Shown: positions 21,844 to 41,500 of the stretch, piece by piece
How the letters are laid out: the number at the start of each line of letters is the position of its first letter
Position numbering within the stretch: position 1 is the first letter of the stretch
Origin: Pseudomonas sp. TH10
GTDB lineage: Bacteria > Pseudomonadota > Gammaproteobacteria > Pseudomonadales > Pseudomonadaceae
DNA length: 64,000 nucleotides
NCBI RefSeq assembly: GCF_016651255.1
Contig: NZ_JAEKEG010000002.1
Location: forward strand, 1-64,000
Direction: 5' to 3'
The notes under the pieces: model-generated
The model's database searches: none
What the model was told of the DNA's origin: nothing
What the model saw: only the letters and a program-made list of their open reading frames with translations
Translations under genes and position numbers: made by a program

Positions 21844-22866
21844 TCAGGGTTTGGCTTCGGTGTCGTACTGCGAAAGCCATTCCACCGCTGCATCGCGATA
21901 ACGGCTGAAGCCCTTGTAATCGACCAGTTGCTGGTTCAAGTCCCGCAGCACCCGGTGCATGCGCCGCGCCCATGCAGGGTTGGTAGCGATGTCCTCGAGG
22001 CTAAGCAGGTAAGTACGAATCGGAAACACGATCGCGTTGCTGCGAGGCAGGCGGTGCAGTGGCTGTAACTCGATGCGCAGGTACACCAGCTTGCCGGCGT
22101 TCTGTGCCGTCACGATGGTGCGGTCCGGTGCCCATTCCGGCAGGCTTTCGGCGGAGACTTCCAGGCGCGGGTTGACCGTCAGTGACCAGTTCAGGCGACG
22201 CACCGGATGCCCGGTGCGCAAGCGCAACAGGAACTTCAAGGCACGGTCCAGCATGCCGATTTCCTTGACCAGTGGCACCGGGCCGTGGAATTCCTCCCAG
22301 CTCATGCCCAGGTTGAAGCGCAGTGAGTAATCGGCACGTTGGGTGGCGATGCCGGCGCCCCAAAACAGCGTGCCGTCGCGTTCTTCCTGCAACACCCAAT
22401 CGCCCTGGGCCTGGCGGGTCACGTATTCCATCGGCTCGTAGGGCAGGGTGGCCGGATCACCGAAGGTGAAGTGGTCATCAATGTCCAGCAGACGGTTGGT
22501 CCAGTGCCACTGGCGGCCCTCGCGCTGCAGGCTGAAGTACTGCGGATAATCGCGGGCGTAGGACTCCATGATCAGCTCCAGCAAGTCCCACTGCGCCTCC
22601 ATCATGTGAGGAGCCGAGACGTAGTGCATGCCTGGGTCTTTATCCAGGGTGATCGCCCGGTCCTTGCACTCGCTGATGTAATGTTCGTCGATGTCGAAAG
22701 CTGCGCGGAACGCGCCATCGCCTACCGAGACATGCGGCTCGAGATTCATCGAGTACATGTAGTCGTCATCAGGGAATGGGAAGGGCGCACGGGCGATGGT
22801 TTCCGGGCTGTTGGCGAAGGTGTAGTCGTCGCGGTAGGTTTCGTCGGGATTGAATTTAATATTCAT
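21844..22866 (-). CDS. Heme-dependent oxidative N-demethylase (DUF3445)
   Basis: A 340-residue protein of the DUF3445 family, the heme-binding oxygenase subunit of dimethylamine-monooxygenase-type enzymes, which hydroxylate an N-methyl group and release formaldehyde. Visible family segments are FPFPDDDYMYSMNLEPHVS, MHYVSAPHMMEAQWDLLELI and WGAGIATQRADYSLRFNLG, followed by LNWSLTVNPRLE and RIELQPLHRLPRSNAIVFPI. It is the third gene of a leftward operon behind the DmmA-like protein and the reductase, with an 18-base gap to the reductase. The true amine substrate is unknown. Confidence 0.85.
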   Translation of the reverse strand: MNIKFNPDETYRDDYTFANSPETIARAPFPFPDDDYMYSMNLEPHVSVGDGAFRAAFDIDEHYISECKDRAITLDKDPGMHYVSAPHMMEAQWDLLELIMESYARDYPQYFSLQREGRQWHWTNRLLDIDDHFTFGDPATLPYEPMEYVTRQAQGDWVLQEERDGTLFWGAGIATQRADYSLRFNLGMSWEEFHGPVPLVKEIGMLDRALKFLLRLRTGHPVRRLNWSLTVNPRLEVSAESLPEWAPDRTIVTAQNAGKLVYLRIELQPLHRLPRSNAIVFPIRTYLLSLEDIATNPAWARRMHRVLRDLNQQLVDYKGFSRYRDAAVEWLSQYDTEAKP

Positions 22867-22884
22867 TTTTATGTTTTCCGTCGA

Positions 22885-23853
22885 TCAGAGGTCGATGACC
22901 AGGCGATTGCATTTGGCGCGGGATACGCAGGGCATGATTTTCTTGCGGCTGGTCTTGTCCTCATCCGACAGCCAGTCATCGCCGTGCAGCAGCTCGCCAT
23001 CAAGTTCCAGTACGGTGGTTTCGCAATGGCCACAGGCGCCGCCACGACACAGGTAAGGCATGCTGTAGCCAGCGGCTTCTACTGCTTCGAGCATGGTCTG
23101 GTCGGGAGAGACCTCGATGGTCGTGCCGCTATGGCCGAGGGTGAAACTGAAGGCTTCGCCGCCGCTGCTCTGCTCCAGGAATCGCTCGAAGTGCACATGG
23201 CTGTCGGTCCAGCCCAGTTCCCGGGCGCACGCCAGCGTGGCGTCGATCATGCTGTCCGGGCCGCAGACGTACACGTGGCTACCCAGCGGGCGGTCGGCCA
23301 GGACCCTACCGATGTCCATGCGCGAGTCGACACCCTTGCGATACAGATGCACCTGTTCGCCATAGGTGGCCTGCAATTCCTTGCCAAGTTGTGCATGCGC
23401 TTCGCCGCGCACCGCGTAATGCAGTTCAAAAGGCACCTTGCTCAGGCGCAGTTCCTCCAGCTGCGAGATGACCGGTGTAATGCCGACGCCGCCCGCGATA
23501 AAGATGTGCAGCCGCGCCTGCTTGATGAGCGGGAACAGGTTGACCGGTGGCGTCACCTCGATCACATCCCCTTCGCTGACATCGTCGTGCAGCGAGACCG
23601 AGCCGCCACGACCGTTGTCCACCCGGCGCACGGCAATCTGATAACTGCTGGTGTCGTACGGCGAGCTGAGCAGTGAATAGGGGTTGCGCAGGGTGTTCTG
23701 CGAGTGGGCGATCAGCACCACCACGTGGCTGCCACCGGAAAACGCGGGCAGGTGAGCGCCGGTCGGCGACACCAGGGTGAAGCGCTTGATTTCCGGGGTC
23801 ACCGCTTCGATGCGGGCTACGCGCAAATTCAATGTGCCGTTGTTCTGGCTCAT
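22885..23853 (-). CDS. PDR/VanB family oxidoreductase, FMN and 2Fe-2S reductase
   Basis: A 322-residue phthalate-dioxygenase-reductase-type electron carrier. The order is the flavin domain (about 1-105, NPYSLLSSPYDTSSYQIAVR), an NAD domain (FIAGGVGITPVISQLEEL, YVCGPDSMIDATLACA), and a C-terminal plant-type ferredoxin (YLCRGGACGHCETTVL, final Cys in MPCVSRAKC). It should pass electrons from NADH to the heme demethylase. It overlaps the stop of the DmmA-like gene by four bases (ATGA), so translation is coupled. The ferredoxin cysteines appear complete. Confidence 0.9.
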   Translation of the reverse strand: MSQNNGTLNLRVARIEAVTPEIKRFTLVSPTGAHLPAFSGGSHVVVLIAHSQNTLRNPYSLLSSPYDTSSYQIAVRRVDNGRGGSVSLHDDVSEGDVIEVTPPVNLFPLIKQARLHIFIAGGVGITPVISQLEELRLSKVPFELHYAVRGEAHAQLGKELQATYGEQVHLYRKGVDSRMDIGRVLADRPLGSHVYVCGPDSMIDATLACARELGWTDSHVHFERFLEQSSGGEAFSFTLGHSGTTIEVSPDQTMLEAVEAAGYSMPYLCRGGACGHCETTVLELDGELLHGDDWLSDEDKTSRKKIMPCVSRAKCNRLVIDL

Positions 23854-27534: not shown

Positions 27535-28421
27535 ATGAGTCACTACCAGCCGGGCATCCTCGCCACCCCGTTCCGCTGCAAGCCCGTCATCTGTTCTTCG
27601 CGCTGGTGTCCGTCGAAGCCCTGCCGGCTGCGCTCGACAACCTGATGCAACTGGTAGACGGCAAATCTGCCGTAGTGGGCTTTGGTGAGTCCCTGGCCAT
27701 GGCACTACACGCCCGTATCGATGGCCTGCGGGCATTTCCGGCGATGACCGGCGTGGGCGTCGACAACCCGTCGACCCAGCATGCGCTGTGGTGCTGGCTG
27801 CATGGCATCGACCGTGGCGAACTGCTCAATCGCAGCCAGGCCATCGAAGCGGCACTGGCTCCGGCGTTGCGTCTGGTACAGATGAATGAAACTTTTCGCC
27901 ACCTGACCGGCCACGACCTGACCGGTTACGAGGACGGTACGGAAAACCCCCATGACGAAGCGGCCGTGGCGGCGGCGTTGCTGGGCGAGGGCGCTGAGGG
28001 CCTGGTCGGTGGCAGTTTTGCCGCGATCCAGCAGTGGCAGCACGACTTGAAAGGTTTTCGCGCGTTGCCGTCCCATGAGACGGACAACATCATGGGCCGG
28101 CGCCTGAGCGACAACGAAGAACTGGACGATGCGCCAATCTCTGCTCACGTCAAACGCACCGCCCAGGAAAGTTTTGCCCCCGAGGCGTTTGTGGTGCGTC
28201 GTTCCATGCCCTGGATTGAAGGCGACCGTGCCGGCCTGATGTTCCTCGCTTTCGGCTTCTCCCTGGACGCCTTCGAAGCCCAGCTGCGCCGCATGAGCGG
28301 CCTGGAAGACGGCATCACCGATGGCCTGTATCGCATCAGCCGACCGATCACCGGCGGCTACTACTGGTGCCCGCCGCTCAAGGGCGGCCACCTCGACCTG
28401 CGCGCGCTGCGCATGGGCTGA
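27535..28421 (+). pseudogene. DyP-type peroxidase, one frameshift near the start
   Basis: DyP peroxidases are heme enzymes that oxidise dyes and aromatic compounds. ATG 27535 opens MSHYQPGILATP behind a strong ribosome-binding site (AAGGAG), but at the four-C run 27566-27569 the frame is lost and continues in the -1 frame as VPLQARHLFFALVSVE to 28421. Adding one C gives a 295-residue class B DyP. The GXXDG motif (LTGYEDGTENPHDEA), the proximal His region (ISAHVKRTAQESF) and the distal Arg (FVVRRSMPWIEGD) are present. It is divergent from the PAS/activator operon. Confidence 0.9.
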
Positions 28422-28522
28422 CACCGGTTGGCAGGGTGAAGGAGCAGGCGCCTTCACCTGAAACTGCCGACTAACCTTATACCCAAACGTTATTTCCCAG
28501 CCGCAAATCAGCTCGATATGAT

Positions 28523-28546
28523 CTTGTCATAACTCGTTATAACAAG
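28523..28546. promoter_or_regulatory. Probable operator of the GntR regulator
   Basis: CTTGTCATAACTCGTTATAACAAG is a near-perfect 24-base inverted repeat (CTTGT-ATAAC arms), ending ten bases before the GntR start codon. HutC-type GntR proteins bind such GT-TATAAC sites, so autoregulation of the whole operon is likely. Confidence 0.75.
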
Positions 28547-28556
28547 TGATTCCGTG

Positions 28557-29309
28557 ATGACCGATAACGTTCTCTCCCTAAGCAGCGTTCCTTTGCACAC
28601 TCAACTGCGCGACGTCCTCCGTGCGCGCATTCTGGACGGTGAATACCCGCAAGACAGCCAGATGCCTTCCGAAAGCGAACTGGGTGCGCTGTTCAAAGTC
28701 AGCCGCATCACCGTGCGCCAGGCGCTCGGCGATCTGCAAAAGGAAGGGCTGATCTTCAAGATCCACGGCAAAGGCACTTTTGTTGCCAAGCCGAAAACCT
28801 TTCAAAACGTCAGCAGCCTGCAAGGCCTCGCCGAGTCCATGACCGGGCGTGGCTACGAGGTGATCAACCGCCTGCGCAGTTTCAAATTCATCCCCGCCGA
28901 TAAACGCGTCGCCGAGCGTTTGCAAGTCGCGGAAGGCGAGACCGTGGCGCAGATCAAACGCGTACGGCTGATCAACCGCGAGCCGATCTCGCTGGAAATC
29001 ACCTACCTGCCCAAAGCCGTCGGCGAGCGCCTGGAGAAGGCTGATCTGGTCACCCGCGACATCTTCCTGATTCTCGAAAACGACTGCGGCATTGCCCTCG
29101 GCCACGCCGATCTGGCGATCGACGCGGTGCTGGCCGACAGCGACCTGACCCAGGCACTGAACGTCGAGGCCGGCTCGCCGATCATGCGCATCGAGCGCCT
29201 GACCCACAACGCCAACGGCCAGCCGCTGGACTTCGAATACCTTTACTACCGTGGCGACGCCTTCCAGTACCGCCTGCGAATCGACCGGCAAAAAGGAGCG
29301 CAGGCATGA
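28557..29309 (+). CDS. GntR/HutC family transcriptional regulator
   Basis: A 250-residue regulator. The winged HTH occupies about residues 10-75 (LHTQLRDVLRARILDGEYP, MPSESELGALFKVSRITVRQ, FKIHGKGTFVAKPK), and the UTRA effector domain follows (about 95-245, RVRLINREPISLEITYLP, FEYLYYRGDAFQYRLRID). The start is ATG 28557; a GTG three bases earlier is possible. Its stop overlaps the start of the flavoprotein gene (ATGA), so the regulator is part of the operon it probably controls through the palindrome at 28523-28546. The effector is unknown, presumably the imported substrate. Confidence 0.92.
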   Translation: MTDNVLSLSSVPLHTQLRDVLRARILDGEYPQDSQMPSESELGALFKVSRITVRQALGDLQKEGLIFKIHGKGTFVAKPKTFQNVSSLQGLAESMTGRGYEVINRLRSFKFIPADKRVAERLQVAEGETVAQIKRVRLINREPISLEITYLPKAVGERLEKADLVTRDIFLILENDCGIALGHADLAIDAVLADSDLTQALNVEAGSPIMRIERLTHNANGQPLDFEYLYYRGDAFQYRLRIDRQKGAQA

Positions 29310-31036
29310 CCCGCAACGTTCTCGAACAGGAGTACGACATCGTCGTTATCGGCGGTGGCACTGCCGGCCCGATGGCCGCGATCAAGGCCAAGGAAAAGAA
29401 CCGCGACTTGCGCGTGTTGCTGGTCGACAAGGCCAACGTCAAACGCAGCGGCGCGATCAGCATGGGCATGGACGGCCTGAACAACGCGATCATTCCCGGC
29501 CACTCGACGCCGGAGCAGTACACCAAGGAAATCACCATCGCCAACGACGGCATCGTCAATCAGGCGGCGGTGTACGCCTACGCCACGCATAGTTTCGAAA
29601 CCATTGAGCAACTCGACCGCTGGGGCGTGAAGTTCGAAAAGGACGAAACCGGCGATTACGCGGTGAAAAAAGTCCACCACATGGGCGCCTACGTGCTGCC
29701 AATGCCGGAAGGACACGACATCAAGAAGGTCTTGTATCGCCAGTTGAAACGCGCTCGGGTCAACATCACCAATCGCCTGGTGTGCACGCGTTTGCTGACC
29801 GACGAGGAGGGCACCGTCAATGGCGTGATGGGCTTCGATTGCCGCACCGCCGACTTCCATGTGATCAAGGCCAAAGCGGTGATCCTCGCGTGCGGTGCCG
29901 CCGGACGCCTCGGTCTGCCGTCGTCGGGTTACCTGATGGGCACCTACGAAAACCCGACCAACGCTGGCGATGGTTACGCGATGGCCTATCACGCCGGAGC
30001 CGAACTGGCGAACCTCGAGTGCTTCCAGATCAACCCGTTGATCAAGGATTACAACGGCCCGGCCTGCGCTTACGTCACTGGCCCGTTGGGCGGCTATACC
30101 GCCAACAACAAGGGCGAACGCTTCATCGAGTGCGACTACTGGAGCGGGCAGATGATGTGGGAGTTCCACCAGGAGCTGGAAAGCGGCAACGGTCCGGTGT
30201 TTCTCAAACTCGATCATCTGGCCGAGGAAACCATCCAGAACATCGAGGAGATTCTGCACAGCAACGAACGCCCGAGCCGGGGCCAGTTTCACGCCAATCG
30301 CGGCACCGATTACCGCACGCAAATGGTCGAGATGCACATCTCCGAAATCGGTTTTTGCAGTGGTCATTCGGCGTCCGGTGTGTGGGTCAACGAGCGTGCC
30401 GAGACCTCGGTGAAAGGCTTGTACTCGGCCGGTGACATGGCCGCCGTGCCGCACAACTACATGCTTGGCGCTTTCACCTACGGCTGGTTCGCCGGGCACA
30501 ACGCTGCGGACTTTGTCGCCGGGCGCGAGTTTTCTGCGCTGGATGCCGAGCAGATCGAAAAGGAAAAGGCCCGAGTCTACGCGCCACTGGATCGCGAAAA
30601 CGGTCTGCCGCCCGCACAGGTCGAGTACAAGCTGCGGCGCTTCGTCAACGATTACCTGCAACCGCCGAAAGTCACCAAGAAGATGCAGATCGGCCTGCAA
30701 CGTTTCAGCGACATCGAGCGCGACCTCGAGCAGATGAAGGCCAACAACGCCCACGAACTGATGCGCGCGATGGAAGTCAGCGTGATCCGCGATTGCGCCG
30801 AAATGGCTGCTCGCGCCTCATTGTTCCGCGCCGAAAGCCGTTGGGGGCTGTACCACCATCGGGTCGATTACCCGCAGCGCAATGACCGCGACTGGTTCTG
30901 CCATTGCCACCTGAAGAAGGGCGATGACGGCTTGATGACCAGTTTCAAGAAAGCCGTCGAGCCTTACATCATCCCGCTCGATGCCGAAGAAATGCAGGCC
31001 TACGACCGCTTGCGAGTCGGTGCCTTTGCCGCGTGA
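29306..31036 (+). CDS. AprA/fumarate reductase-type flavoprotein subunit
   Basis: A 576-residue FAD protein of the succinate dehydrogenase/fumarate reductase and adenylylsulfate reductase superfamily. The FAD motif is YDIVVIGGGTAGPMAAIKA, then KANVKRSGAISMGMDGLNN, ILACGAAGRLGLPSSGY, and the capping region with RTQMVEMHISEIGFCSGH and LYSAGDMAAVPHNYMLGAF. The companion ferredoxin of AprB type follows after 27 bases, which points to a soluble two-subunit oxidoreductase rather than a membrane complex. It does not sit with sulfate-activation or respiratory genes, so its substrate is probably the solute brought in by the ABC transporter in the same operon. The reaction is unknown. Confidence 0.85.
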   Translation: MTRNVLEQEYDIVVIGGGTAGPMAAIKAKEKNRDLRVLLVDKANVKRSGAISMGMDGLNNAIIPGHSTPEQYTKEITIANDGIVNQAAVYAYATHSFETIEQLDRWGVKFEKDETGDYAVKKVHHMGAYVLPMPEGHDIKKVLYRQLKRARVNITNRLVCTRLLTDEEGTVNGVMGFDCRTADFHVIKAKAVILACGAAGRLGLPSSGYLMGTYENPTNAGDGYAMAYHAGAELANLECFQINPLIKDYNGPACAYVTGPLGGYTANNKGERFIECDYWSGQMMWEFHQELESGNGPVFLKLDHLAEETIQNIEEILHSNERPSRGQFHANRGTDYRTQMVEMHISEIGFCSGHSASGVWVNERAETSVKGLYSAGDMAAVPHNYMLGAFTYGWFAGHNAADFVAGREFSALDAEQIEKEKARVYAPLDRENGLPPAQVEYKLRRFVNDYLQPPKVTKKMQIGLQRFSDIERDLEQMKANNAHELMRAMEVSVIRDCAEMAARASLFRAESRWGLYHHRVDYPQRNDRDWFCHCHLKKGDDGLMTSFKKAVEPYIIPLDAEEMQAYDRLRVGAFAA

Positions 31037-31063
31037 TGCATCACTGAAAAGAGAGTCCGAACC

Positions 31064-31309
31064 ATGGCCTATCAAGCCCAGGAAATCTTCTTCCGCTCCA
31101 ATGCCCCCGTCACCGTGGACGAGGACAAATGCATCGCCGAAAAGGGTTGCACCGTGTGCGTTGACGTCTGCCCGATGGACCTGCTGGCGATCAACCCGGC
31201 GACGCAAAAGGCTTACATGGCGTTCGATGAATGCTGGTACTGCATGCCGTGCGAGAAGGACTGCCCGACCGGGGCGGTGAAGGTCGAGATTCCCTATCTG
31301 TTGCGCTAA
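31064..31309 (+). CDS. Two-cluster 4Fe-4S ferredoxin, AprB-like
   Basis: An 81-residue protein with eight cysteines in two groups: CIAEKGCTVCVDVCP and CWYCMPCEKDCP. This is the 2[4Fe-4S] pattern of AprB-type ferredoxins. It lies behind the flavoprotein gene with a good ribosome-binding site (GAGAG) and would pass electrons to or from that protein. A 149-base gap with a CCCCTCG...CGAGGGG stem (about 31387-31452) separates it from the ABC transporter genes. Confidence 0.9.
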   Translation: MAYQAQEIFFRSNAPVTVDEDKCIAEKGCTVCVDVCPMDLLAINPATQKAYMAFDECWYCMPCEKDCPTGAVKVEIPYLLR

Positions 31310-31458
31310 ATCCCAATCATTGTGGGATCGAGTACAGACAACTTGTAAAGCCATCCGGTGAACCCCGGACGCTGGATTCATCGAACACCCCTCGTTTCCC
31401 ACCGCGCCCTGATCGCGGCGGAGACGAACTCAAATAAACGATTCGAGGGGAAACACTC

Positions 31459-32862
31459 ATGTTGCGTGCAGCAATCGCCGGTCTGGTACTGGCCTCATTT
31501 ACCTTGTCGGCCTCAGCCGAAACCATCCGCATCGCCATCGGCACCCAGGACACCACCATCAACTGCGCCGCAGGCGGTTTGCTGATTCGTGAACTCGGTC
31601 TGCTCGACAAATACCTGCCCCACGACGGCGCCTACAAAGACGCCCAATACGAGGTGCAGTGGAAAAACTTCACCAGCGGTGCGCCCCTGACCAATGAGAT
31701 GGTCGCCGGCAAACTCGACTTCGGCGCCATGGCGGATTTCCCCGGCACCTTCAACGGGGTGGCGTTTGAAGCCGCTGGCAAGCACAGCCTGTTCATCAGC
31801 GTGTTGTCGGGCAGTATCAAAGGCAGCGGTAACGGCATCGTGGTGCCCAGCGCGTCCAGCGTGCAATCCCTGGCCGAGCTCAAGGGCAAGACCATCTCCG
31901 TACCGTTCGCCTCGACGGCCCACGGCATGTTGTTGCGAGCGGTGGCGGCGCAGGGCTGGGATCCGCTGAAAGATGTGAACATCATCGCCCAGCCGCCGGA
32001 GGTCGCCGGCTCGGCATTACAGGCCGGCAAAATCGACGCTCACGCCGATTTCGTGCCGTTCGCCGAACTGTTCCCGAGCCGTGGTTTTGCTCGCAAGATC
32101 TACGACGGCGCCCAGGCCAATGCGCCGACGTTCCATGGTGCGCTGGTGGATCAGGCGTATGCGAAGAAGTACCCGGAGATCGTCGTTGCTTATTTGCGGG
32201 CGAGCATTGAGGCCAATCAACTGCTCGCCGCCGAACCAGAGAAGTACAGCGAGCTGATCGCCAAAGTCACCGGCGTCGATGCCGAGGTCAACTACCTGTT
32301 CCACGGCCCGCTCGGCGTGCAGACCCGCGACTTGAGTTGGAAGCCGGAATATCGTCAGGCGGTCGGCACCGCCATCGACACGTTGAAGCTGCTGAAGAAG
32401 GCCGACCGAGGCCTCGATCTGAATACCTTCATCGACGACCAATACATTCGCGCCGCGTTCAAGGCGTCGAACCTGGATTACTCCGCCCAGCTTGGCAATT
32501 ACGCCCAGAGCCCGTTGAAGGCAGTGGATGCAGCGAACGGCCAGGTCATCACCGACTTCAGTCACGTGGCCGAGATCTGGGTGCGCGGTGAACCCAAGGT
32601 TCGCCAGTATGCCTCGGCGCAGACAGCGTTCAGCGCATTGGCGCAGTTGAAAGCCGAGGGCAAAAACGTCCGGGCGGTGTATGCGCAGGCCAGTGACAGC
32701 GGAATCAAGTTATTGGCCGACCAGGCGTGGTTTGCCAGCGATGCCAAGGGTCGCTTGAGTGCGTTCCTGCTCAAGGGCCAGGCCCAGCAATTTGCAGCGG
32801 CGCAGGGCGGCAAAGTTTTCGACTTCACCGACGCCACCACCCAGGCGGTTGCTGCCCGGTAA
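31459..32862 (+). CDS. ABC transporter substrate-binding protein, sulfonate/taurine type with extra C-terminal domain
   Basis: A 467-residue secreted binding protein. Residues 1-21 form a signal peptide (MLRAAIAGLVLASFTLSASA), and the SsuA/TauA-like fold follows (IRIAIGTQDTTINCAAGGLL, KLDFGAMADFPGTFNGVAF, AELKGKTISVPFASTAHGM). It is about 130 residues longer than usual. The C-terminal part (from about 360) ends AWFASDAKGRLSAFLLKGQA and FAAAQGGKVFDF, which resembles NosL-type domains. The gene starts a transporter set with permease and ATPase, following the flavoprotein and ferredoxin. The ligand is unknown. Confidence 0.85.
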   Translation: MLRAAIAGLVLASFTLSASAETIRIAIGTQDTTINCAAGGLLIRELGLLDKYLPHDGAYKDAQYEVQWKNFTSGAPLTNEMVAGKLDFGAMADFPGTFNGVAFEAAGKHSLFISVLSGSIKGSGNGIVVPSASSVQSLAELKGKTISVPFASTAHGMLLRAVAAQGWDPLKDVNIIAQPPEVAGSALQAGKIDAHADFVPFAELFPSRGFARKIYDGAQANAPTFHGALVDQAYAKKYPEIVVAYLRASIEANQLLAAEPEKYSELIAKVTGVDAEVNYLFHGPLGVQTRDLSWKPEYRQAVGTAIDTLKLLKKADRGLDLNTFIDDQYIRAAFKASNLDYSAQLGNYAQSPLKAVDAANGQVITDFSHVAEIWVRGEPKVRQYASAQTAFSALAQLKAEGKNVRAVYAQASDSGIKLLADQAWFASDAKGRLSAFLLKGQAQQFAAAQGGKVFDFTDATTQAVAAR

Positions 32863-32884
32863 TCAAACTGGAATGCGGTCAACG

Positions 32885-32916
32885 TAGGAGCTGCCGAAGG
32901 CTCCGGCAGCTCCTAC
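32885..32916. repeat. REP-like hairpin
   Basis: GTAGGAGCTGCCG-aaggct-CGGCAGCTCCTAC forms a nearly perfect stem between the binding-protein and permease genes. It may adjust transcript stability, keeping the binding-protein message more abundant. Confidence 0.8.
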
Positions 32917-32944
32917 GGGGGCGTGTCGCCATTGGGAATTGTTT

Positions 32945-33727
32945 ATGTACCGATCATTTATCCGCTGGACCCCCAGGGCCGCTTCATTGCTGCTCTGCCT
33001 GCTGTTCTGGCAACTCGCCGCCAGCCACCACTGGAACCTCGGCCTCGTCACCTTCGCCAACGTGCCGACACCCATCGCGGTGATCGAAGCGGCGCTTGGC
33101 TTGGGCGACTCCGGCAAGCTCCTGCAACACCTGACCGCCAGCCTCAGCCGCGTCTTCGCCGGCTACCTCGCGGCACTGGTCATCGGCATCGCCCTGGGCC
33201 TGGCCATCGGTCGCTCGAAGCGGGCTGAAGACTGGCTGCTGCCGCCCCTGGAAGTGCTGCGCCCGATTCCCGCCGTGGCCTGGATTCCCCTGGCCATCCT
33301 GATGTTTCCCTCGTCGGAGCTGTCGATGGTTTTCATCACCTTCACGGGCGCACTGTTCCCGATCCTGTTGAATACCGTGCACGGCGTCGAAGGCGTCGAC
33401 CCACGCCTGATTGCCTCAGCGAAAAGCCTCGGAGCAGGGCGCCGGGCGATCCTGCTGGAAGTGATCCTGCCCGGCGCCGCGCCGAGCATCATCACCGGTC
33501 TGGCGATCGGCATGGGCACGTCGTGGTTCTGCCTGGTCACCGCAGAAATGATCTCCGGCCAGTTCGGCATCGGTTACTACACCTGGGAGTCCTACACCAT
33601 TCAAAACTATGCCGACATCGTCGTCGGCATGCTCTTGATCGGTGTGCTGGGCATGGGCAGCAGTTTGCTGATCAAACGCCTGGGCGGGTTGTTCACGCCT
33701 TGGCATCGACCGCGAGGAAAAGCCTGA
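32945..33727 (+). CDS. ABC transporter permease, sulfonate/taurine type
   Basis: A 260-residue inner-membrane permease with six predicted helices. It starts at ATG 32945 (MYRSFIRWTP), preferred over a TTG at 32939. The EAA loop is visible as GVDPRLIASAKSLGAGRRAI followed by LPGAAPSIITGLAIGMGTSW. Family members pair with SsuB/TauB ATPases. Its stop shares a base with the start of the ATPase gene (TGATG), so the two are translationally coupled. Confidence 0.92.
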   Translation: MYRSFIRWTPRAASLLLCLLFWQLAASHHWNLGLVTFANVPTPIAVIEAALGLGDSGKLLQHLTASLSRVFAGYLAALVIGIALGLAIGRSKRAEDWLLPPLEVLRPIPAVAWIPLAILMFPSSELSMVFITFTGALFPILLNTVHGVEGVDPRLIASAKSLGAGRRAILLEVILPGAAPSIITGLAIGMGTSWFCLVTAEMISGQFGIGYYTWESYTIQNYADIVVGMLLIGVLGMGSSLLIKRLGGLFTPWHRPRGKA

Positions 33728-34575
33728 TGAGCGTGATGCAAACCCCGGAAGGACGGATTGATATCCGCCAGTTATCCATTGTTCTTGGCGAAGGGCTGCA
33801 AGCATTCGAAGCCGTGCAAGGCCTCGACTGCCAGATCGAGCCAGGCCAGTTTGTGTGCATTCTCGGCCCGTCCGGTTGCGGCAAATCGACCTTGCTCGGC
33901 GCCTTGGCCGGGCATCTCAACGCCCATGCCGGTAGCCTGAAAGTCGATGGCAGCGAAGTCTCAGGCCCATCACCGCAGCGCGGCATGGTGTTCCAGCATC
34001 ACACGTTGTTCCCCTGGCGCACGGTGCGTGACAACGTCGCCTTCGGCCTGAAGATGCGTGGCATCGGTAAAACCGAGCGACACCAGGCCGCTGACGAGAT
34101 CCTGGCCCTGGTCGGGCTTGAAGGGTTCGCCGAGCGCTGGCCTGATCAGTTGTCCGGGGGCATGCAGCAACGTGTCGAAATCGCCCGTGTGCTGGTCAAT
34201 CGCCCGCGCCTGTTGCTGATGGACGAGCCGTTCGGCGCGCTGGATGCGCTGACCCGTCTGAACATGCAAGAGCTGCTGCTGGACATCTGGACGCGCATCC
34301 GCACCACCGTGGTCTTCGTCACCCACGACATCGACGAAGCGCTGTTCCTTGCCGACCGTTTGCTGGTGATGAGCGCACGGCCGGGGCGAATCATCGAAGA
34401 CTTGCGCCTGGATTTCGTCCGACCCCGCACCAGCGAATTGGTCACCAGCCACGAATTCTCCCGACTCAAGCGTCACTGCCTTGAGTTGTTGCGTCACGAA
34501 GACGGTCGGCAGCTACCGCGCCTGAACCCTCTCGGACTTCCCCCAGAAAATAAACTGCCGCGATTTGCCCTATGA
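33727..34575 (+). CDS. ABC transporter ATP-binding protein, sulfonate/taurine type
   Basis: A 282-residue ATPase starting at ATG 33727. Walker A is LGPSGCGKSTLLGALAGH, the signature is DQLSGGMQQRVEIARVLV, Walker B is LLLMDEPFGALDALTR and the switch His is in VVFVTHDIDEALFLADR. It powers the adjacent permease and shares the SsuB/TauB layout. Its stop overlaps the start of the HEAT-repeat gene by four bases, tying that gene to the transporter. Confidence 0.94.
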   Translation: MSVMQTPEGRIDIRQLSIVLGEGLQAFEAVQGLDCQIEPGQFVCILGPSGCGKSTLLGALAGHLNAHAGSLKVDGSEVSGPSPQRGMVFQHHTLFPWRTVRDNVAFGLKMRGIGKTERHQAADEILALVGLEGFAERWPDQLSGGMQQRVEIARVLVNRPRLLLMDEPFGALDALTRLNMQELLLDIWTRIRTTVVFVTHDIDEALFLADRLLVMSARPGRIIEDLRLDFVRPRTSELVTSHEFSRLKRHCLELLRHEDGRQLPRLNPLGLPPENKLPRFAL

Positions 34576-35534
34576 CCTCTCTATTCGATGTGACCGATAA
34601 CGCTGACATTCTTGCCCTGCAAACACGCCTGAGTGATGAGGATCCGGGCGTGCGCAGGATTGCCCTGATTGAACTGGCTGATCTCGAGGAGCCTGAAGGC
34701 CTGGTCTGGCTGGTCGACCGACTGGCCGAGGATCCGGCTGAAGAAGTTCGTGCCGAAGCCGCACGGCTGCTGGAAGCCTGGGAGGATGACCCGGTCGTCG
34801 AGGCATTGTGCCAGGCCCTGACCGACCCTGCGCAGACAGTGCAGGCCGCCGCCGCGCAGAGCCTCAGCCTGCTCAAGAGCGAGGCGGCAGGCAAGGTGAT
34901 CCTGCCGTGGACCGTGCATGCCGAAGTGCAGGTGCGCGTCGCCGCGTTTCGGGCTCTGCGCGAGTTGCGCTTCCCCGGTGCCGCCGCTGCCGCCTCTGCC
35001 GCCTTGCTCGATGTGGACCCAGGTGTGCGCCGCGAGGCGGTCGGCGTGCTCGGCTGGCTCAAGCAGCTCGATGCCTTGCCGGCGCTGGCGACGCTGGCCA
35101 GCCAGGATCCCGACACAGAAGTTCGTCGTGCCGCCACCGGCGCCCTCGGTCTGGCTTGCGATGCCCAGGTCCTGCCGGCCCTGCGTCAGGCCCTGCGGGA
35201 CAACGCCTGGCAGGTTCGTGAGGAAGCCGCTACGACCCTGGGCAAGGTCGGCCACGTTGACGCGGGCCCGGCGCTGGTCGATGCCCTGGGCGACGATTAC
35301 TGGCAAGTACGCCTGCGCGCCACCCGCAGCCTCGGGCGCTTGCGCTATGTCCCGGCGCTTGAGGCCCTGATCGACACCCTCGGCCATCGCATCAGCAACC
35401 TGCGCAAGGAAGCCGCACTGGCCCTGGGTGAACTGAATGATCGCGGCGCTGTGGCCGCATTGCAGGCTGCGCAGGATGACGGCGACCCGGAAGTGCGCAA
35501 AGCCGTGCGCATTGCCTTGAGTCAGTTGCAATGA
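34572..35534 (+). CDS. HEAT-repeat (PBS-lyase-type) protein
   Basis: A 320-residue protein built from about nine tandem HEAT repeats of about 31 residues, each with the motif DPxVRRxAxxALG: VRRIALIELADLEEPEGLVW, VRREAVGVLGWLKQLDALPA, VRRAATGALGLACDAQVLPA, VREEAATTLGKVGHVDAGPA. Such proteins are scaffolds or chaperone-like partners; CpcE-type relatives attach bilins. It has no signal peptide, so it is cytoplasmic. It overlaps both neighbours (ATPase and DUF971), so it works within this operon, perhaps holding or maturing the flavoprotein/ferredoxin. Function unknown. Confidence 0.88.
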   Translation: MTSLFDVTDNADILALQTRLSDEDPGVRRIALIELADLEEPEGLVWLVDRLAEDPAEEVRAEAARLLEAWEDDPVVEALCQALTDPAQTVQAAAAQSLSLLKSEAAGKVILPWTVHAEVQVRVAAFRALRELRFPGAAAAASAALLDVDPGVRREAVGVLGWLKQLDALPALATLASQDPDTEVRRAATGALGLACDAQVLPALRQALRDNAWQVREEAATTLGKVGHVDAGPALVDALGDDYWQVRLRATRSLGRLRYVPALEALIDTLGHRISNLRKEAALALGELNDRGAVAALQAAQDDGDPEVRKAVRIALSQLQ

Positions 35535-35818
35535 ACCCGCGGTCGGTGGGGAATTCGCAGGCTCGACAGCAATTGCGCCTCAACTGGCCGGATGGCCGTG
35601 AACAATTGCTGGACCATGCTGAACTGCGCCGCCAGTGCCCGTGCTCGCAATGCCGGGCGTTTCGGCTGCGAGGGCAGGCGCCGCTGGTGGACTCGCGGGT
35701 GCGGGTGATCGAGGTCAATGACCAGGGGTATGGGGTGCAGCTGGTATTCAGTGATGGACATGAGCGGGGAATTTTTCCGTGGGGCTTTCTCGCCGGACTG
35801 GCTAATAACTCCAATTGA
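35531..35818 (+). CDS. DUF971 domain protein
   Basis: A 95-residue protein with the DUF971 core: LRLNWPDGREQLLDHAELRR, CPCSQCRAFRLRGQ and a C-terminal GVQLVFSDGHERGIFPWGFL. This fold is the N-terminal domain of gamma-butyrobetaine hydroxylase, and it also occurs in Fe-S-related proteins; here it stands alone. The three cysteines (CPCSQC) suggest metal binding. It overlaps the HEAT-repeat stop by four bases and is the last gene of the cryptic operon; lexA2 begins 66 bases on. Confidence 0.85.
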   Translation: MNPRSVGNSQARQQLRLNWPDGREQLLDHAELRRQCPCSQCRAFRLRGQAPLVDSRVRVIEVNDQGYGVQLVFSDGHERGIFPWGFLAGLANNSN

Positions 35819-35875
35819 ACACGCCCCCACGGGGCATGTCATGGACGGATGGTGCTTGTCACCAAAACCGCAGAA

Positions 35876-35891
35876 GAGTACAAATGTACTC
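35876..35891. promoter_or_regulatory. LexA2 box (SOS operator)
   Basis: GAGTACAAATGTACTC contains GTAC-AAAT-GTAC, the GTAC-N4-GTAC site described for the second LexA of Pseudomonas putida. It overlaps the first possible lexA2 start codon (ATG 35884) and should control the whole lexA2-imuA-imuB-dnaE2 cassette. Confidence 0.88.
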
Positions 35892-36501
35892 CATGACCAA
35901 CCTCACTCCCCGCCGTACCGCCATTCTGACTTTTATCCGCGATCGCATCGCCGAGCACGGTCAGCCCCCAAGCCTCGCTGAAATCAGCGAGGCGTTCGGT
36001 TTCGCCTCCCGAAGTGTGGCGCGCAAGCATGTGCTGGCGCTTACCGAAGCCGGGTTCATCGAGGTCAACCCCCATCAGGCCCGAGGCATTCGTTTGCTTG
36101 GGCAACCGGCGCGCCCGGAGTTGCTCGACATTCCCGTGCTCGGCCGCGTCGCTGCCGGTGCGCCGATTGGCGCCGATGCCGAGGTTGACCGGCGCTTGAT
36201 GCTCGACCCGGCGCTGTTCTCGCGCACGCCCGATTACATGCTGCGGGTGCAGGGCGACTCAATGATCGAGGACGGCATTCTCGACGGCGATCTGGTCGGC
36301 GTGCGGCGCAATCCCGAAGCGCTCAACGGCCAGATCGTTGTGGCGCGGCTCGACGGTGAAGTCACTATCAAACGTTTCGAACGGCTCGGCGATGAAGTGC
36401 GGCTGTTGCCGCGCAACCCGGCGTATCAGCCGATTGTCGTGCGCGACGATCAGGATCTGGCCATCGAAGGAGTGTTCTGCGGTCTGGTGAGGCAAGGCTG
36501 A
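35884..36501 (+). CDS. lexA2: SOS repressor LexA2 of the mutagenesis cassette
   Basis: A 205-residue repressor (from ATG 35884; ATG 35893 would give 202). The HTH is at about residues 25-50 (PSLAEISEAFGFASRSVARK), and the cleavage site is the Ala-Gly of LGRVAAGAPIGADA. The catalytic Ser and Lys are in QGDSMIEDGILDGDLVGVRR and RLDGEVTIKRFERLG. After RecA-dependent self-cleavage the cassette is derepressed. The operator at 35876-35891 overlaps the first ATG, so the start is uncertain. It shares a base with the imuA start (TGATG). Confidence 0.93.
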   Translation: MYSMTNLTPRRTAILTFIRDRIAEHGQPPSLAEISEAFGFASRSVARKHVLALTEAGFIEVNPHQARGIRLLGQPARPELLDIPVLGRVAAGAPIGADAEVDRRLMLDPALFSRTPDYMLRVQGDSMIEDGILDGDLVGVRRNPEALNGQIVVARLDGEVTIKRFERLGDEVRLLPRNPAYQPIVVRDDQDLAIEGVFCGLVRQG

Positions 36502-37118
36502 TGGGCGCCGTCGTTGCGTTGGATACGCTGTTCAATGGCGGCCAGGTCTGGAAGGGCCGGCCCGCGCCCTCGGCCGCCAGCCCGCAACCCACCGGGCACG
36601 CGGTGCTGGATGCCGCGCTGCCCACCGGTGGCTGGCCGGAAGCGGCACTGACTGAAATCCTCCTGGCCGGGCAGGGCGTGGGTGAATTGCAACTGGTGTG
36701 GCCGGCCCTGGCGCGGTTGTCCGCAGCGGGGGAGCGGATTGTCCTGGTGGCGCCGCCCTTTGTTCCCTACCCCCAAGCCTGGGAAAACGCCGGGGTCGAT
36801 CTGCGTCAACTGTCCATCATCCAGGCCAGCGAGCGCGATGCCTTGTGGGCAGCGGAGCAGTGCCTGCGCTCGGGCAGTTGCGGCGCGGTGCTGTGCTGGC
36901 CGCATAAAGCCGATGACCGTGCATTGCGTCGCTTGCAAGTGGCAGCAGAAACCGGCTCGACCCTGGCGTTTGCCTATCGCTCGATCCAGGAGGCCATCAA
37001 CCCTTCGCCTGCAGCCTTGCGCATCGCCATCGATGCGCGCCCCGCGCAACTGCGTGTGCTCAAGTGCCGGGGCGGGCTGGCCCGTTCGGCGCCAATCGCC
37101 TTTGCCGTGGGGCATTGA
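36501..37118 (+). CDS. imuA: Translesion synthesis-associated protein ImuA
   Basis: A 205-residue RecA-like (SulA-like) protein that works with ImuB and DnaE2 in error-prone lesion bypass. Recognisable segments are HAVLDAALPTGGWPEAALTE, GVGELQLVWPALARLSAAGE and a Walker-B-like IVLVAPPFVPYPQAWENAG. The C-terminal LRVLKCRGGLARSAPIAFAV is typical. The start overlaps the lexA2 stop (TGATG), and imuB starts eight bases downstream, so the genes form one transcript. Confidence 0.93.
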   Translation: MGAVVALDTLFNGGQVWKGRPAPSAASPQPTGHAVLDAALPTGGWPEAALTEILLAGQGVGELQLVWPALARLSAAGERIVLVAPPFVPYPQAWENAGVDLRQLSIIQASERDALWAAEQCLRSGSCGAVLCWPHKADDRALRRLQVAAETGSTLAFAYRSIQEAINPSPAALRIAIDARPAQLRVLKCRGGLARSAPIAFAVGH

Positions 37119-37125
37119 GGTTGCC

Positions 37126-38541
37126 ATGCGTTGGGTATGTATTCTCTTCCCGCAATTGGCGCTGGACGCGGTCTTGCGTCAGCGCAGCGACCCGGATCAA
37201 CCGCTGGCGCTGTTGACCGGCCCGGCCCAGCGCCGTGTGTTGCAGGCAGTCAACGCTTCTGCAAGGGCACTGGGCTTGCGTCCAGGCCAGTCAATGACTG
37301 CCGCCCAGGCATTGAGCAAGGCCTTTGTCACGGCGGAGTACGACGCCGCAGAAATCGAACACTGGCAGCAATTCCTCGCGGCCTGGGCCTATCGGTTCAG
37401 TTCCCAGGTCAGCGTGCATTACCCCCGTGCACTGGTGTTCGAGATCGAATCCAGCCTGGGCCTGTTCGGCCCCTGGTCGCAATTCGAGGCCCGCTTGCGC
37501 AGCGAGCTGGGGGAGCTGGGTTTTCGCCATCGCATAGTCGCAGCCCCCAACCCGGTGGCCGCACGGGTATTGGCCAACCTGCATGACGGTCTGGTGGTCG
37601 CGGATGACGCCGCCTTGCAATGGCACCTCGCGCAATTGCCCATCGACCGCATTGCCCTGGAACCGACGGTAGCCACGGCTTTGTCGCGCATGGGGCTGCG
37701 CACCCTGGACCAGCTGCAGGCTTTGCCGCGTAACAGCCTGGCACGGCGGTTCGAAGCCCGTGTACTGCTGCACCTGGACACCTTGTGCGGGATCCGGCCA
37801 TTGGCCCTGGCGTTCTACCTGCCACCTGACCGTTTTGATGTGCGCATCGAGCTCAATTTTGATGTGCAGTCCCACCAGGCGTTGCTGTTTCCATTACGCC
37901 GCCTGACCGGCGATCTCGCGGCGTTCCTGTGCGGGCGCGACAGTGGCGTGCAGCGTTTTGACCTGCACCTGGAACACTCAGGCTTGCCTGACAGCGTGAT
38001 CAAGGTCGGCCTGCTCAGCGCTGAGCGCGATCCGGCGATGCTCTTTGAACTGGCCCGTGGGCGGCTGGAGCAAGTGCAGGTGCAGGCCCCGGTGCGCGGC
38101 TTTCGCTTGCGAGCCGAAGACTTGCCCGCCTTTGTGCCCCAGCATCAGGAGCTGTTCGACGACCGTCCGCAACAGTCCTTGCCCTGGGAGCAATTGCGCG
38201 AGCGCTTGCGGGCCCGGCTTGGGGATGATGCGGTTCACGGCTTGCGCTTTCAGGCCGACCACCGACCTGAATGTGCCTGGCAGGCCGGGGCCGATAACCA
38301 GCGCGGCAACGGGCTGTGCGGTGTGCAACGTCCAGGGTGGCTGCTGACTGAACCGCTGGCGGTGCAGGAAGGGTCGGCGCGCATTGTCATGGGGCCGGAG
38401 CGAATCGAGTCCGGTTGGTGGGATGGCGGCGATGTGCGACGCGACTATTACCTGATTGAAACCCGCTCCGGCCAGCAGGCCTGGGCCTATCGAGCGGTAG
38501 GCGAGGGTGGTCCATTGTGGCTGCAGGGCTGGTTCGCATGA
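37126..38541 (+). CDS. imuB: Y-family polymerase-like protein ImuB
   Basis: A 471-residue ImuB (also DinP-like), the hub that binds the beta clamp, ImuA and DnaE2 but lacks polymerase activity. It starts at ATG 37126 ([16 protein letters not shown]). Palm and fingers remnants are visible ([31 protein letters not shown]), followed by a helix-hairpin-helix ([19 protein letters not shown]). The acidic residues of active Y-polymerases are not all kept, as expected for ImuB. The stop overlaps the dnaE2 ATG (ATGA). Confidence 0.93.
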
Positions 38542-41500
38542 CCAGCGCCTACGCGGAACTGCATTGCCTGTCGAACTTCAGCTTCCAGCGCGGCGCATCC
38601 AGTGCGCTTGAGCTGTTCCAGCGGGCAAAAAGCAGGGCTACCAGGCGCTGGCCATTACTGATGAATGCACGCTGGCAGGCATCGTCCGAGCCTGGCAGGC
38701 GGCCAGGTCGGTGGACTTGCCGCTGATCATCGGCAGTGAAATCCGCATCGAGAACGGCCCGAAACTGGTGCTCCTGGTGGAAAATCTCGAGGGTTATCAG
38801 CACCTGTGCCGGCTGATCACCCGGGCCCGACGTCGTACGCAGAAAGGCCAGTATCAGGTGCTGCGCGAGGATTTCAGCGAGCCGTTGCCGGGTTTACTGG
38901 CGCTGTGGGTGCCTGACGCTGTGGATGATACGGGCAGTGGTCAGTGGCTGCGGCAAGTGTTTGCTGAACGTCTGTGGCTGGCGGTGCAGTTGCACTGTGG
39001 GCAGAATGACCGGCGCCGACTGGCCGACCTGATGAGCCTGGCGGGCGAGCTGCAAATCCCGATGGTAGCCAGCGGCGACGTGCACATGCATGTGCGCGGG
39101 CGACGCGCGCTGCAGGACACCATGACCGCCATCCGCCATCACGTGCCGGTGGCAGCCGCCGGTTTACGCCTGCACCCCAATGGCGAGCGGCACCTGCGCA
39201 GTCTCGATGCACTGGGCGCGCTCTATCCCCAGGCCTTGCTCGACGAAACAGTCAGGATCGCCCGGCGTTGCACCTTCGACCTGAGCCAGTTGCGCTACCA
39301 ATACCCACGTGAGCTTGTGCCCGAGGGGCACAGCGGGGTCTCGTGGCTGAGGGTACTGACCGAGCGCGGGATTCGCCAGCGTTGGCCCGAAGGTGCGAGT
39401 GACAAGGTTCGGCAACTGATCGACAAGGAACTGGGCCTGATCGCCGAGCTGGGTTATGAAAGTTATTTCCTCACCGTGCAAGACATCGTCGCGTTCGCCC
39501 GACGCGAGCGCATTCTCTGCCAGGGACGCGGCTCGGCGGCCAACTCTGCGGTGTGCTTTGCCCTGGGCATCACCGAGATCGACCCGGCACGCATGAACAT
39601 GCTGTTCGAGCGTTTCCTTTCCAAGGAGCGTAACGAACCGCCAGACATCGACGTCGATTTCGAACACGAACGTCGCGAAGAAGTCCTGCAATACGTGTTT
39701 CAGCGCTACGGTCGCACCCGTGCAGCCCTGACCGCAGTGGTCAGCTCTTATCACGCTGCCGGAGCGGTGCGTGACGTGGCCAAGGCGCTGGGGTTGCCGC
39801 CGGACCAGATCAACGCCCTGGCCGATTGTTGCGGCCACTGGAGCGATCAGACGCCGCCATTGGAGCGCTTGCGCGAAAGCGGTTTCGACCCCGAAAGCCC
39901 GGTGTTGCGTCGGGTGCTCAGCCTCACCGGACAACTGATCGGCTTTCCCCGGCACCTGTCCCAGCATCCGGGTGGCTTTGTCATTTCCGAGCAGCCACTC
40001 GACACCCTGGTGCCGGTGGAGAACGCGGCCATGGCCGAGCGCACCATCATTCAATGGGACAAGGACGACCTGGATGCGGTCGGTCTGCTCAAGGTCGATA
40101 TCCTGGCGCTGGGCATGCTCAGTGCCATTCGCCGTTGTTTTGACCTGTTGCGTCGCCACCGCAACCTCGACCTGAGCCTGGCCACGGTGCCGGCTGAAGA
40201 CCCCCAGACCTACGAAATGATTGGCCGTGCGGATACGGTCGGGGTGTTCCAGATCGAGTCCCGGGCGCAGATGTCGATGTTGCCCAGGCTCAAGCCCAAA
40301 GAGTTCTATGACCTTGTCATTGAGGTAGCGATCGTGCGACCCGGGCCTATCCAGGGTGGCATGGTGCATCCGTATCTGCGGCGACGAAACGGTGAAGAGC
40401 TTGAAACCTATCCGTCCGAGCAATTGCGCGAAGTGTTGAAGCGCACGCTTGGGGTGCCGTTGTTCCAGGAGCAGGTGATGCAGATCGCCATTGTTGCCGC
40501 CGACTACAGCCCCGGGGAGGCCGACCAGTTGCGTCGCTCCATGGCGGCCTGGAAACGCCACGGCGGGCTTGAACCGCACAAGTTGCGCCTGGCTGCCGGG
40601 ATGAAGAAAAACGGCTATACGGCGCAATTCGCCGAGCTGATCTTCGAACAGATCAAGGGGTTTGGCAGCTATGGTTTTCCCGAGTCCCACGCCGCAAGCT
40701 TTGCCTTGCTGACTTACGCCAGTTGCTGGCTGAAGTGCCACGAACCTGCGGCATTTGCCTGCGCGCTGATTAACAGCTGGCCCATGGGTTTCTACAGTCC
40801 CGACCAGATCCTGCAGGATGCACGCCGCCACCATTTACAGATTCGCCCGGTGGATGTGCGCGCCAGTGACTGGGATTGCAGCCTTGAACCCGTTGCCGGG
40901 GCGCAGCCGGCGATCCGTATGGGCTTGCGCATGATCAAGGGCTTTCGCGAGGACGATGCACGACGCATCGAGGTGGCCCGGGCTCGAGGGCATTTGTCGA
41001 CATCGCCGACCTCGGCGAACGGGCACGGCTCGAAGCCCGCGCCCAGGAGCAGTTGGCCGATGCTGGAGCCCTGCGCGGGCTGGCGGGAGATCGCCATCGC
41101 GCGCGCTGGGAAGTGGCAGGGGTGCACAAGCAACTGGGACTGTTTGCCGGGCTGCGCGATGCAGGAGGAGGAACCTGGTGGCCTTACCCAAGCCCACGGT
41201 TGGCGAGGATCTGCTGGCTGACTACACCACGTGTCGGTACCACCCTCGGCCCACATCCGCTGGCGCTTGTTACGCGGCGAGCTGAAAGCGCGGCGCTGTC
41301 GCAGTTCCAGGGAATTGCTGGAGGTCGAGCATGGCCGTCCGGTCAGCGTCGCCGGCCTGGTCACCGGTCGCCAGCGACCGGGTACCGCCAGTGGTGTGAC
41401 CTTCGTCACCCTGGAAGATGAGTTCGGCAACGTCAACGTGATCGTCTGGCGCGACCTGGCCGAGCGTCAGCGAAAAGTGCTGGTGGGCTCGCAGTTGCTC

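Follow-up and report, generated by a model that had tools for sequence, protein, structure and literature searches.

A NosL-like domain without the known copper site on an SsuA/TauA-type receptor of Pseudomonas sp. TH10, and the gene cassette that carries it

Known systems and the TH10 locus

NosL sits on the NosDFY transporter, MerB depends on a catalytic Cys, the SAO system has a partner with the MerB fold, and in AprA the Arg of the RFxxxR stretch is an active-site residue. Extracts of two studies report that NosL binds Cu(I) (PMC6530538, PMC7558416), and an extract of Bennett et al. 2019 (PMC6530538) identifies, as likely Cu(I) ligands of NosL, a Cys and a Met that belong to a CXM motif, and describes one other Met as absolutely conserved. 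NosL and MerB are described, in excerpted text, as one fold of duplicated beta-beta-alpha-beta units (PMC4999995, PMC7558416). The Clostridioides SAO system couples a related ABC importer type with a MerB-like protein, according to a reference within an excerpt of PMC13188914, and a Trp of the small AprAB subunit has been proposed to take part in electron transfer (PMC10322725, in extract).

We analysed a window of 64,000 nucleotides from Pseudomonas sp. TH10, in which an uninterrupted open reading frame (31459-32862, + strand) encodes a receptor of 467 residues. The gene belongs to an eight-gene cassette in the order GntR, flavoprotein, ferredoxin, receptor, permease, ATPase, HEAT, DUF971:

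28554..29309, + strand: GntR/UTRA transcriptional regulator, first cassette gene (Pfam GntR and UTRA; its stop overlaps the flavoprotein start, ATGA)
29306..31036, + strand: AprA-like FAD flavoprotein (NCBIfam PRK08275, NF006131)
31064..31309, + strand: AprB-like ferredoxin of 81 residues (solved-structure matches, conserved Cys and Trp)
31459..32862, + strand: receptor, a periplasmic binding protein, SsuA/TauA-like, with NosL-like tail, 467 aa (open reading frame, Pfam, NCBIfam, solved-chain alignments)
32494..32859, + strand: C-terminal stretch of the receptor with the NosL-like domain, residues 346-467 (Pfam match to residues 369-463, 32563-32847)
32945..33727, + strand: ABC permease, BPD_transp_1 (ATG at 32945; frame listed from TTG at 32939)
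33727..34575, + strand: ABC ATPase (ATG overlaps the permease stop, TGATG)
34572..35534, + strand: HEAT-repeat protein (Pfam HEAT_2, 6.8e-55; start overlaps the ATPase stop)
35531..35818, + strand: DUF971 / GBBH-like_N protein (Pfam PF06155, 1.4e-19; start overlaps the HEAT stop)

Overlaps of 1-4 bases join GntR to flavoprotein, permease to ATPase, ATPase to HEAT and HEAT to DUF971. A scan of 28300-36000 for promoters and terminators did no better than shuffled sequence (1 versus a mean of 1.5, and 5 versus a mean of 7.0, respectively). Between receptor and permease, a GC-rich inverted repeat noticed by eye (32884-32920) resembles Pseudomonas REP elements. Upstream of the cassette lie haem-dependent dimethylamine monooxygenase genes (HODM, DmmA-like; 21844-23853), which adjoin amino acid permeases, an aldehyde dehydrogenase and a sigma-54 activator. 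Downstream, at 35815-41221, a LexA-like gene is accompanied by one for a DNA polymerase III of alpha type (the latter by domain scan), and the region is probably a lexA-imuAB-dnaE2 mutagenesis cassette.

The receptor N-terminus (MLRAAIAGLVLASFTLSASA), read directly, resembles a Sec signal peptide and has no lipobox Cys. Its binding-protein part scores above the cut-offs of Pfam NMT1_2 (PF13379; residues 56-266, 48.3 bits versus 24.7) and of PF09084 of the NMT1 family (38.9 bits versus 20.5), and below those of NCBIfam SsuA_fam (residues 59-330, 126.1 bits versus 163.5), TauA (89.1 bits versus 304.25) and SaoX (25.4 bits versus 300). Solved SsuA/TauA chains align with it as far as about residue 284. 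The sub-threshold NCBIfam scores led us to reject the protein as an SsuA, TauA or SaoX equivalog; we read it as the periplasmic receptor of an SsuA/TauA-type ABC importer, as part of an overall explanation in which we place slightly more belief than doubt. The original prediction that it exceeds the usual SsuA/TauA length is borne out by its 467 residues, about 130 of them extra. Its best public relatives are from Pseudomonas, with that of P. gregormendelii 97% identical; the gene is also present in P. umsongensis DSM 16611 and P. jessenii DSM 17150, and no more distant receptor sequences turned up in the viral contigs scanned. The full-length AlphaFold model, with 24 close Pseudomonas sequences, reached pLDDT 39.2 and pTM 0.27, too low for a reading of the ligand pocket; even so, its best counterpart in the PDB was NosL (7og7, Z 7.3), matched over residues 352-413.

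The same eight genes occur in the same order at 74 of 89 loci (80 from Pseudomonas and 9 plasmid records). At four further loci the sole difference is that permease and ATPase are sorted the other way round, probably an effect of sorting by stop-to-stop frames, and 11 are incomplete or rearranged, some of them at contig ends. Receptor, permease, ATPase, flavoprotein, ferredoxin and HEAT genes are also all present in 10 of 11 other genome regions. Plasmids bearing the cassette come from Rhizobium, Sinorhizobium, Mesorhizobium, Bradyrhizobium, Methylobacterium, Methylocystis, Cupriavidus, Paraburkholderia, Aquabacterium and Acinetobacter, and from the cyanobacteria Pseudanabaena and Leptolyngbya, and the gene set is common to Alpha-, Beta- and Gammaproteobacteria and Cyanobacteria. 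The cyanobacterial plasmid versions (L115, L116 and L167) have LysR-type regulators of about 670 residues, and two of them (L116 and L167) have an Mrp/NBP35 gene after HEAT. On a 44 kb plasmid of Acinetobacter baumannii (L117), the cassette adjoins a chromate efflux gene.

Relation of the receptor tail to NosL

Scanned alone, the TH10 tail falls just short of the NosL cut-off (PF05573; 23.8 bits, E 6.3e-5, cut-off 24), and within the full-length receptor the domain scores 18.6 bits (E 0.0024, same cut-off). Since the TH10 tail itself is borderline, the NosL identity was drawn from the whole family: when 31 diverse receptor tails, as little as 31% identical to that of TH10, were aligned and scanned one by one, all 31 matched NosL (counted at E<=1; best 6.6e-10), while the next-best family was matched by at most 2 of the 31, leaving no rival domain in the profile check. 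A NosL search that did not name the receptor picked up 11 receptors above the cut-off in 119 Pseudomonadaceae genomes, beside true NosL genes, and all 11 of these places, on checking, lie inside receptor genes. At E<=0.001 the NosL search of 398 Pseudomonadota genomes recovered 10 of the 20 receptors and thus missed half of them; at the same threshold, the TH10 genome (assembly 78% complete) gave no match and no other NosL, so that the search also passed over the receptor's own tail. Searched against the PDB at E<=10, the tail profile returned four matches, every one of them NosL (7og7, 1.5e-6; 7osf, 0.018; 7znq, 0.02; 2hpu, 0.45). Profile-profile alignment with hhalign against 30 true NosL sequences gave a probability of 96.7% (E 3.5e-10), and chance likeness was ruled out by decoys, the reversed tail reaching 1.7% and none of 50 column shuffles exceeding 1.9%.

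Structure prediction of the tail by itself, with 79 close sequences, gave a best model of five with pLDDT 76.9 and pTM 0.68 (the other four ranged from pLDDT 58.8 to 41.8). The fold similarity of this model to NosL was found by both Foldseek and VIA-align, each placing 7og7 first. In Foldseek, 7og7 was the only PDB match at E<=0.001 (1.3e-4, probability 1.00, TM 0.63/0.60), followed by three further NosL chains and then by MerB at E 1.1. In VIA-align, six NosL entries took ranks 1-6 (Z 8.7 to 6.4), with 109 residues of 7og7 aligned at an rmsd of 3.1 and Z 8.7, and the next row stood at Z 4.6 and MerB at Z 4.2; only one Z exceeds 8, yet the NosL rows are well separated from the others. We considered the tail as a MerB-like lyase and rejected this because the Cys is missing and MerB scores poorly (E no better than 1.1 in Foldseek, Z 4.2). 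The original prediction of a NosL-like domain in the last 110 residues or so is thus upheld by scans of all 31 tails, the PDB profile search, hhalign at 96.7% and the predicted fold, which agree, and the identification of this part of the receptor as a NosL-superfamily domain is confirmed.

The tail is a regular part of this receptor. Among 57 related genomes, all 15 strong receptor matches extend to residue 461 or further, and all other matches, among the matches listed, stop by residue 341; in the TH10 genome, this receptor alone has the tail among the 4 listed of 6 binding-protein matches. In the larger set of 398 Pseudomonadota genomes the receptor is present in 20 (E<=1e-60), and none of these 20 matches stops short of residue 460. 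Tail and receptor share a single open frame at 119 of 120 loci (L001-L120, a redundant set that includes the TH10 locus, 80 of them being the best 80 of 331), on which ground we rejected an assembly or frame error as the source of the tail. At the remaining locus (L035, Pseudomonas sp. UYIF39), an in-frame stop falls exactly at the receptor/tail junction, through either natural truncation or sequencing error. Against 79 Pseudomonas loci, the tail has a median dN/dS (Nei-Gojobori) of 0.057, with a maximum of 0.134, and the receptor part has a median of 0.027; these figures are rough because synonymous sites are near saturation. The Rhizobium protein is 54% identical in the tail and 79% in the receptor part, and 4 residues are invariant across the 31 tails, Trp374 and Lys417 among them. 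As judged from these sequence comparisons, the tail evolves more quickly than the receptor part, yet is clearly constrained by purifying selection.

The known copper site of NosL is not retained. In a joint alignment, CXM is present in 30 of 30 true NosL sequences and in 0 of 31 tails; the column of its Met holds Met in none of the 31, and where all 30 NosL sequences have their second Met, every tail is gapped. The TH10 tail contains no Cys, no Met and one His, and its Pfam NosL match begins at profile position 23, past the CXM motif. With CXM and the second Met absent, the tail is therefore a relative of NosL by descent and shape that lacks the known copper site, and the copper reading of the TH10 tail was rejected on the missing motif. 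Eight of the 31 tails (the Bradyrhizobium type, L106-L113) have two Cys, one of them in the CXM Cys column, possibly a remnant or a different metal site.

The AprAB-like pair, its coupling to the importer and the sulfur context

The flavoprotein scores 1139 bits against PRK08275 (NF006131; cut-off 587), and remains below the cut-offs of aprA (196 bits versus 641.75) and NF005331 (307.7 bits versus 557). Its closest solved structure is 8a8o, the PAPS reductase alpha subunit of Methanothermococcus thermolithotrophicus (E 6.3e-65), followed by AprA. For the ferredoxin, the solved-structure matches are led by a polyferredoxin (3.7e-14) with AprB second (5.7e-10), and its score against aprB is 37 bits (cut-off 135.65). 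The eight Cys and Trp58 of the ferredoxin are invariant in 22 of 22 sequences, and Trp58 aligns with the Trp of AprB (3gyx_B). The AprA stretch RFIPFRFKD reads CFQINPLIKD in the cassette flavoprotein, with Leu245 in the place of the AprA Arg in 22 of 22. As AprA and AprB equivalogs, the cassette pair was rejected because both proteins fall under the curated cut-offs. The Leu in place of the AprA Arg, together with the sub-threshold aprA scores, suggests that the substrate is probably not APS; on sequence grounds, then, the flavoprotein and ferredoxin are AprAB-like in build and probably act on another compound.

Phylogenetic distribution links the importer to this enzyme. The flavoprotein (NF006131, E<=1e-150) occurs in 21 of the 398 Pseudomonadota genomes, including all 20 that have the receptor (naive hypergeometric 8e-33, a value that ignores kinship); counted by genus, this comes to 9 receptor genera and 10 flavoprotein genera out of 212. 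One genome (G084) has both an ABC cassette and an enzyme cassette, about 2.9 Mb apart. The single genome with the flavoprotein and no receptor (G377) keeps GntR, flavoprotein, ferredoxin, HEAT and DUF971 genes (L168), with matching ABC genes absent within the 19 kb examined; an MFS transporter gene lies alongside this enzyme cassette. Gene order and co-occurrence show that the importer is coupled to the AprAB-like pair, the HEAT protein and the DUF971 protein.

The surroundings of the cassette give a weak sulfur context. A stretch was counted as positive when a gene outside the cassette had a sulfur-compound product name (taurine, sulfonate, SsuA-type receptor, LLM/DmoA monooxygenase, TauD, TauE/SafE, 3-mercaptopropionate dioxygenase, rhodanese). 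Such genes flank the cassette in 7 of 12 plasmid records (L093, L094, L119, L120, L162, L165 and L166), and control stretches elsewhere in the same 12 records were positive in 0 of 12 (Fisher one-sided 0.0023), in a comparison in which the word list was set after the test stretches had been viewed and before the controls, the list includes the broad TauE/SafE and TauD/TfdA families, and the controls were often plasmid backbone or transposons. Three records that offered no control (L116, L117 and L167) are negative, so that overall 7 of 15 are positive and 8 are not.

Proposed role, alternatives and comparison with known systems

The explanation towards which we lean, holding it a little better than evenly probable, is an importer with an AprAB-like reductase for a sulfur compound, in which the tail is a repurposed docking or accessory domain. 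The receptor would catch a small anionic sulfur compound (an oxyanion, sulfonate or similar) in the periplasm, the permease and ATPase would import it, and the flavoprotein would reduce it with electrons from the ferredoxin, the direction of the reaction being likewise conjectural. The HEAT and DUF971 proteins would aid enzyme assembly; for HEAT, the role is suggested because a HEAT part is fused to the flavoprotein in PRK13800, to which the cassette HEAT protein is similar. The tail would most likely be a periplasmic accessory that serves the transporter in docking or gating, or else forms a part of the substrate site, and it would keep the NosL fold, not the metal site, and carry no copper. 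By analogy, it may be NosL-like in other respects, for instance in being seated on an ABC transporter. Docking is proposed on two grounds: the seating of NosL on NosDFY, and the PDB titles of 7osf-7osj and 7znq. More tentatively, and with considerable doubt, we put forward an as yet undescribed import-and-reduce pathway of Proteobacteria and Cyanobacteria that would join cytoplasmic reduction of an unactivated sulfur or other oxyanion compound by the AprAB-like flavoprotein to a metal-stripped copper-chaperone fold, serving as the receptor's substrate-handing or docking module.

Other roles for the tail have to be weighed against this one. In our estimate the tail is unlikely to be a second ligand-binding or organo-element module, in which a MerB/NosL-fold pocket would accommodate part of the substrate outside the cleft of the binding protein: MerB does come next after NosL in Foldseek, SAO in Clostridioides pairs a related importer type with a MerB-like protein (PMC13188914, in excerpt), and permease and ATPase have good SaoP and SaoA scores, though under the cut-off, but MerB matches only weakly (Z 4.2, and E no better than 1.1 in Foldseek), the TH10 tail has no Cys, and the receptor reaches 25 bits against SaoX where the cut-off is 300. 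That the tail simply stabilises the protein or acts as a spacer, with no specific role, would agree with its faster evolution, as in the 54% versus 79% identity of the Rhizobium protein; its retention in 20 of 20 relatives among the 398 genomes, a dN/dS far below 1 and the four residues invariant in 31 tails make this reading improbable.

We consider it very improbable that the tail still binds copper or another metal and that the imported substrate is a metal complex or a metal-linked compound. NosL binds Cu(I) (PMC6530538, PMC7558416, in extract), the fold of the tail is common to MerB (VIA-align; PMC4999995, in extract), and eight tails (L106-L113) keep the CXM-column Cys and a second Cys. 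Against this, CXM is absent from 31 of 31 tails and the other NosL Met column is gapped in all 31, the TH10 tail has neither Cys nor Met, and the cassette partners are AprAB-like rather than metal-handling. The original prediction of a metal-linked or metal-complexed substrate is therefore not supported, the motif and partner-gene comparisons having given no evidence for it: the motif is missing throughout, and the partners resemble APS/PAPS reductase.

The locus joins three things that are unconnected in the literature searched: an importer's receptor with a degenerate NosL domain, a reductase of the AprAB-like type that stands apart from sulfate respiration, and a fixed HEAT/DUF971 cassette. 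Its carriers are plant-associated and soil bacteria and plasmids, and knowing the substrate would establish a new nutrient route. The tail is also a case of a metal-chaperone fold whose shape is kept and whose metal site is lost, and it should be noted for annotation that 'NosL' is not to be taken to mean 'copper'.

In comparison with known systems, the TH10 importer has the same receptor part, permease type and ATPase type as SsuA/TauA/NMT1 systems, but its receptor is about 130 residues longer and scores under the SsuA_fam and TauA cut-offs, and its partner enzyme is AprAB-like where those of SsuA and TauA are monooxygenases or dioxygenases. APS/PAPS reductase AprAB (including 8a8o) likewise consists of an FAD subunit and a two-cluster ferredoxin with a Trp proposed to transfer electrons, whereas the cassette pair is under the AprA and AprB cut-offs, has Leu245 in 22 of 22 where AprA has Arg, and includes a short ferredoxin that is missing the C-terminal part of AprB. 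The SAO (selenocysteine-assisted organometallic) system shares an NMT1-type importer and a MerB-fold partner (PMC13188914, in excerpt), but the TH10 receptor reaches 25 bits against SaoX (cut-off 300), and the MerB-like protein of SAO is separate and unfused. The organomercurial lyase MerB is related to the tail in fold (Foldseek, VIA-align; PMC4999995, in extract), but the TH10 tail is without Cys, and the MerB family is unmatched at E<=1 in the 31 tails. Titles, abstract starts and term counts of the papers listed from the literature searched yielded no description of the fusion or the cassette, which is not proof of absence. The tail is like NosL in its sequence profile, its two beta-beta-alpha-beta halves and its fold, and unlike NosL in lacking CXM and the second conserved Met, in being fused to a binding protein that has no lipobox, and in lying away from nos genes; the receptor-NosL fusion is a new architecture made from known parts.
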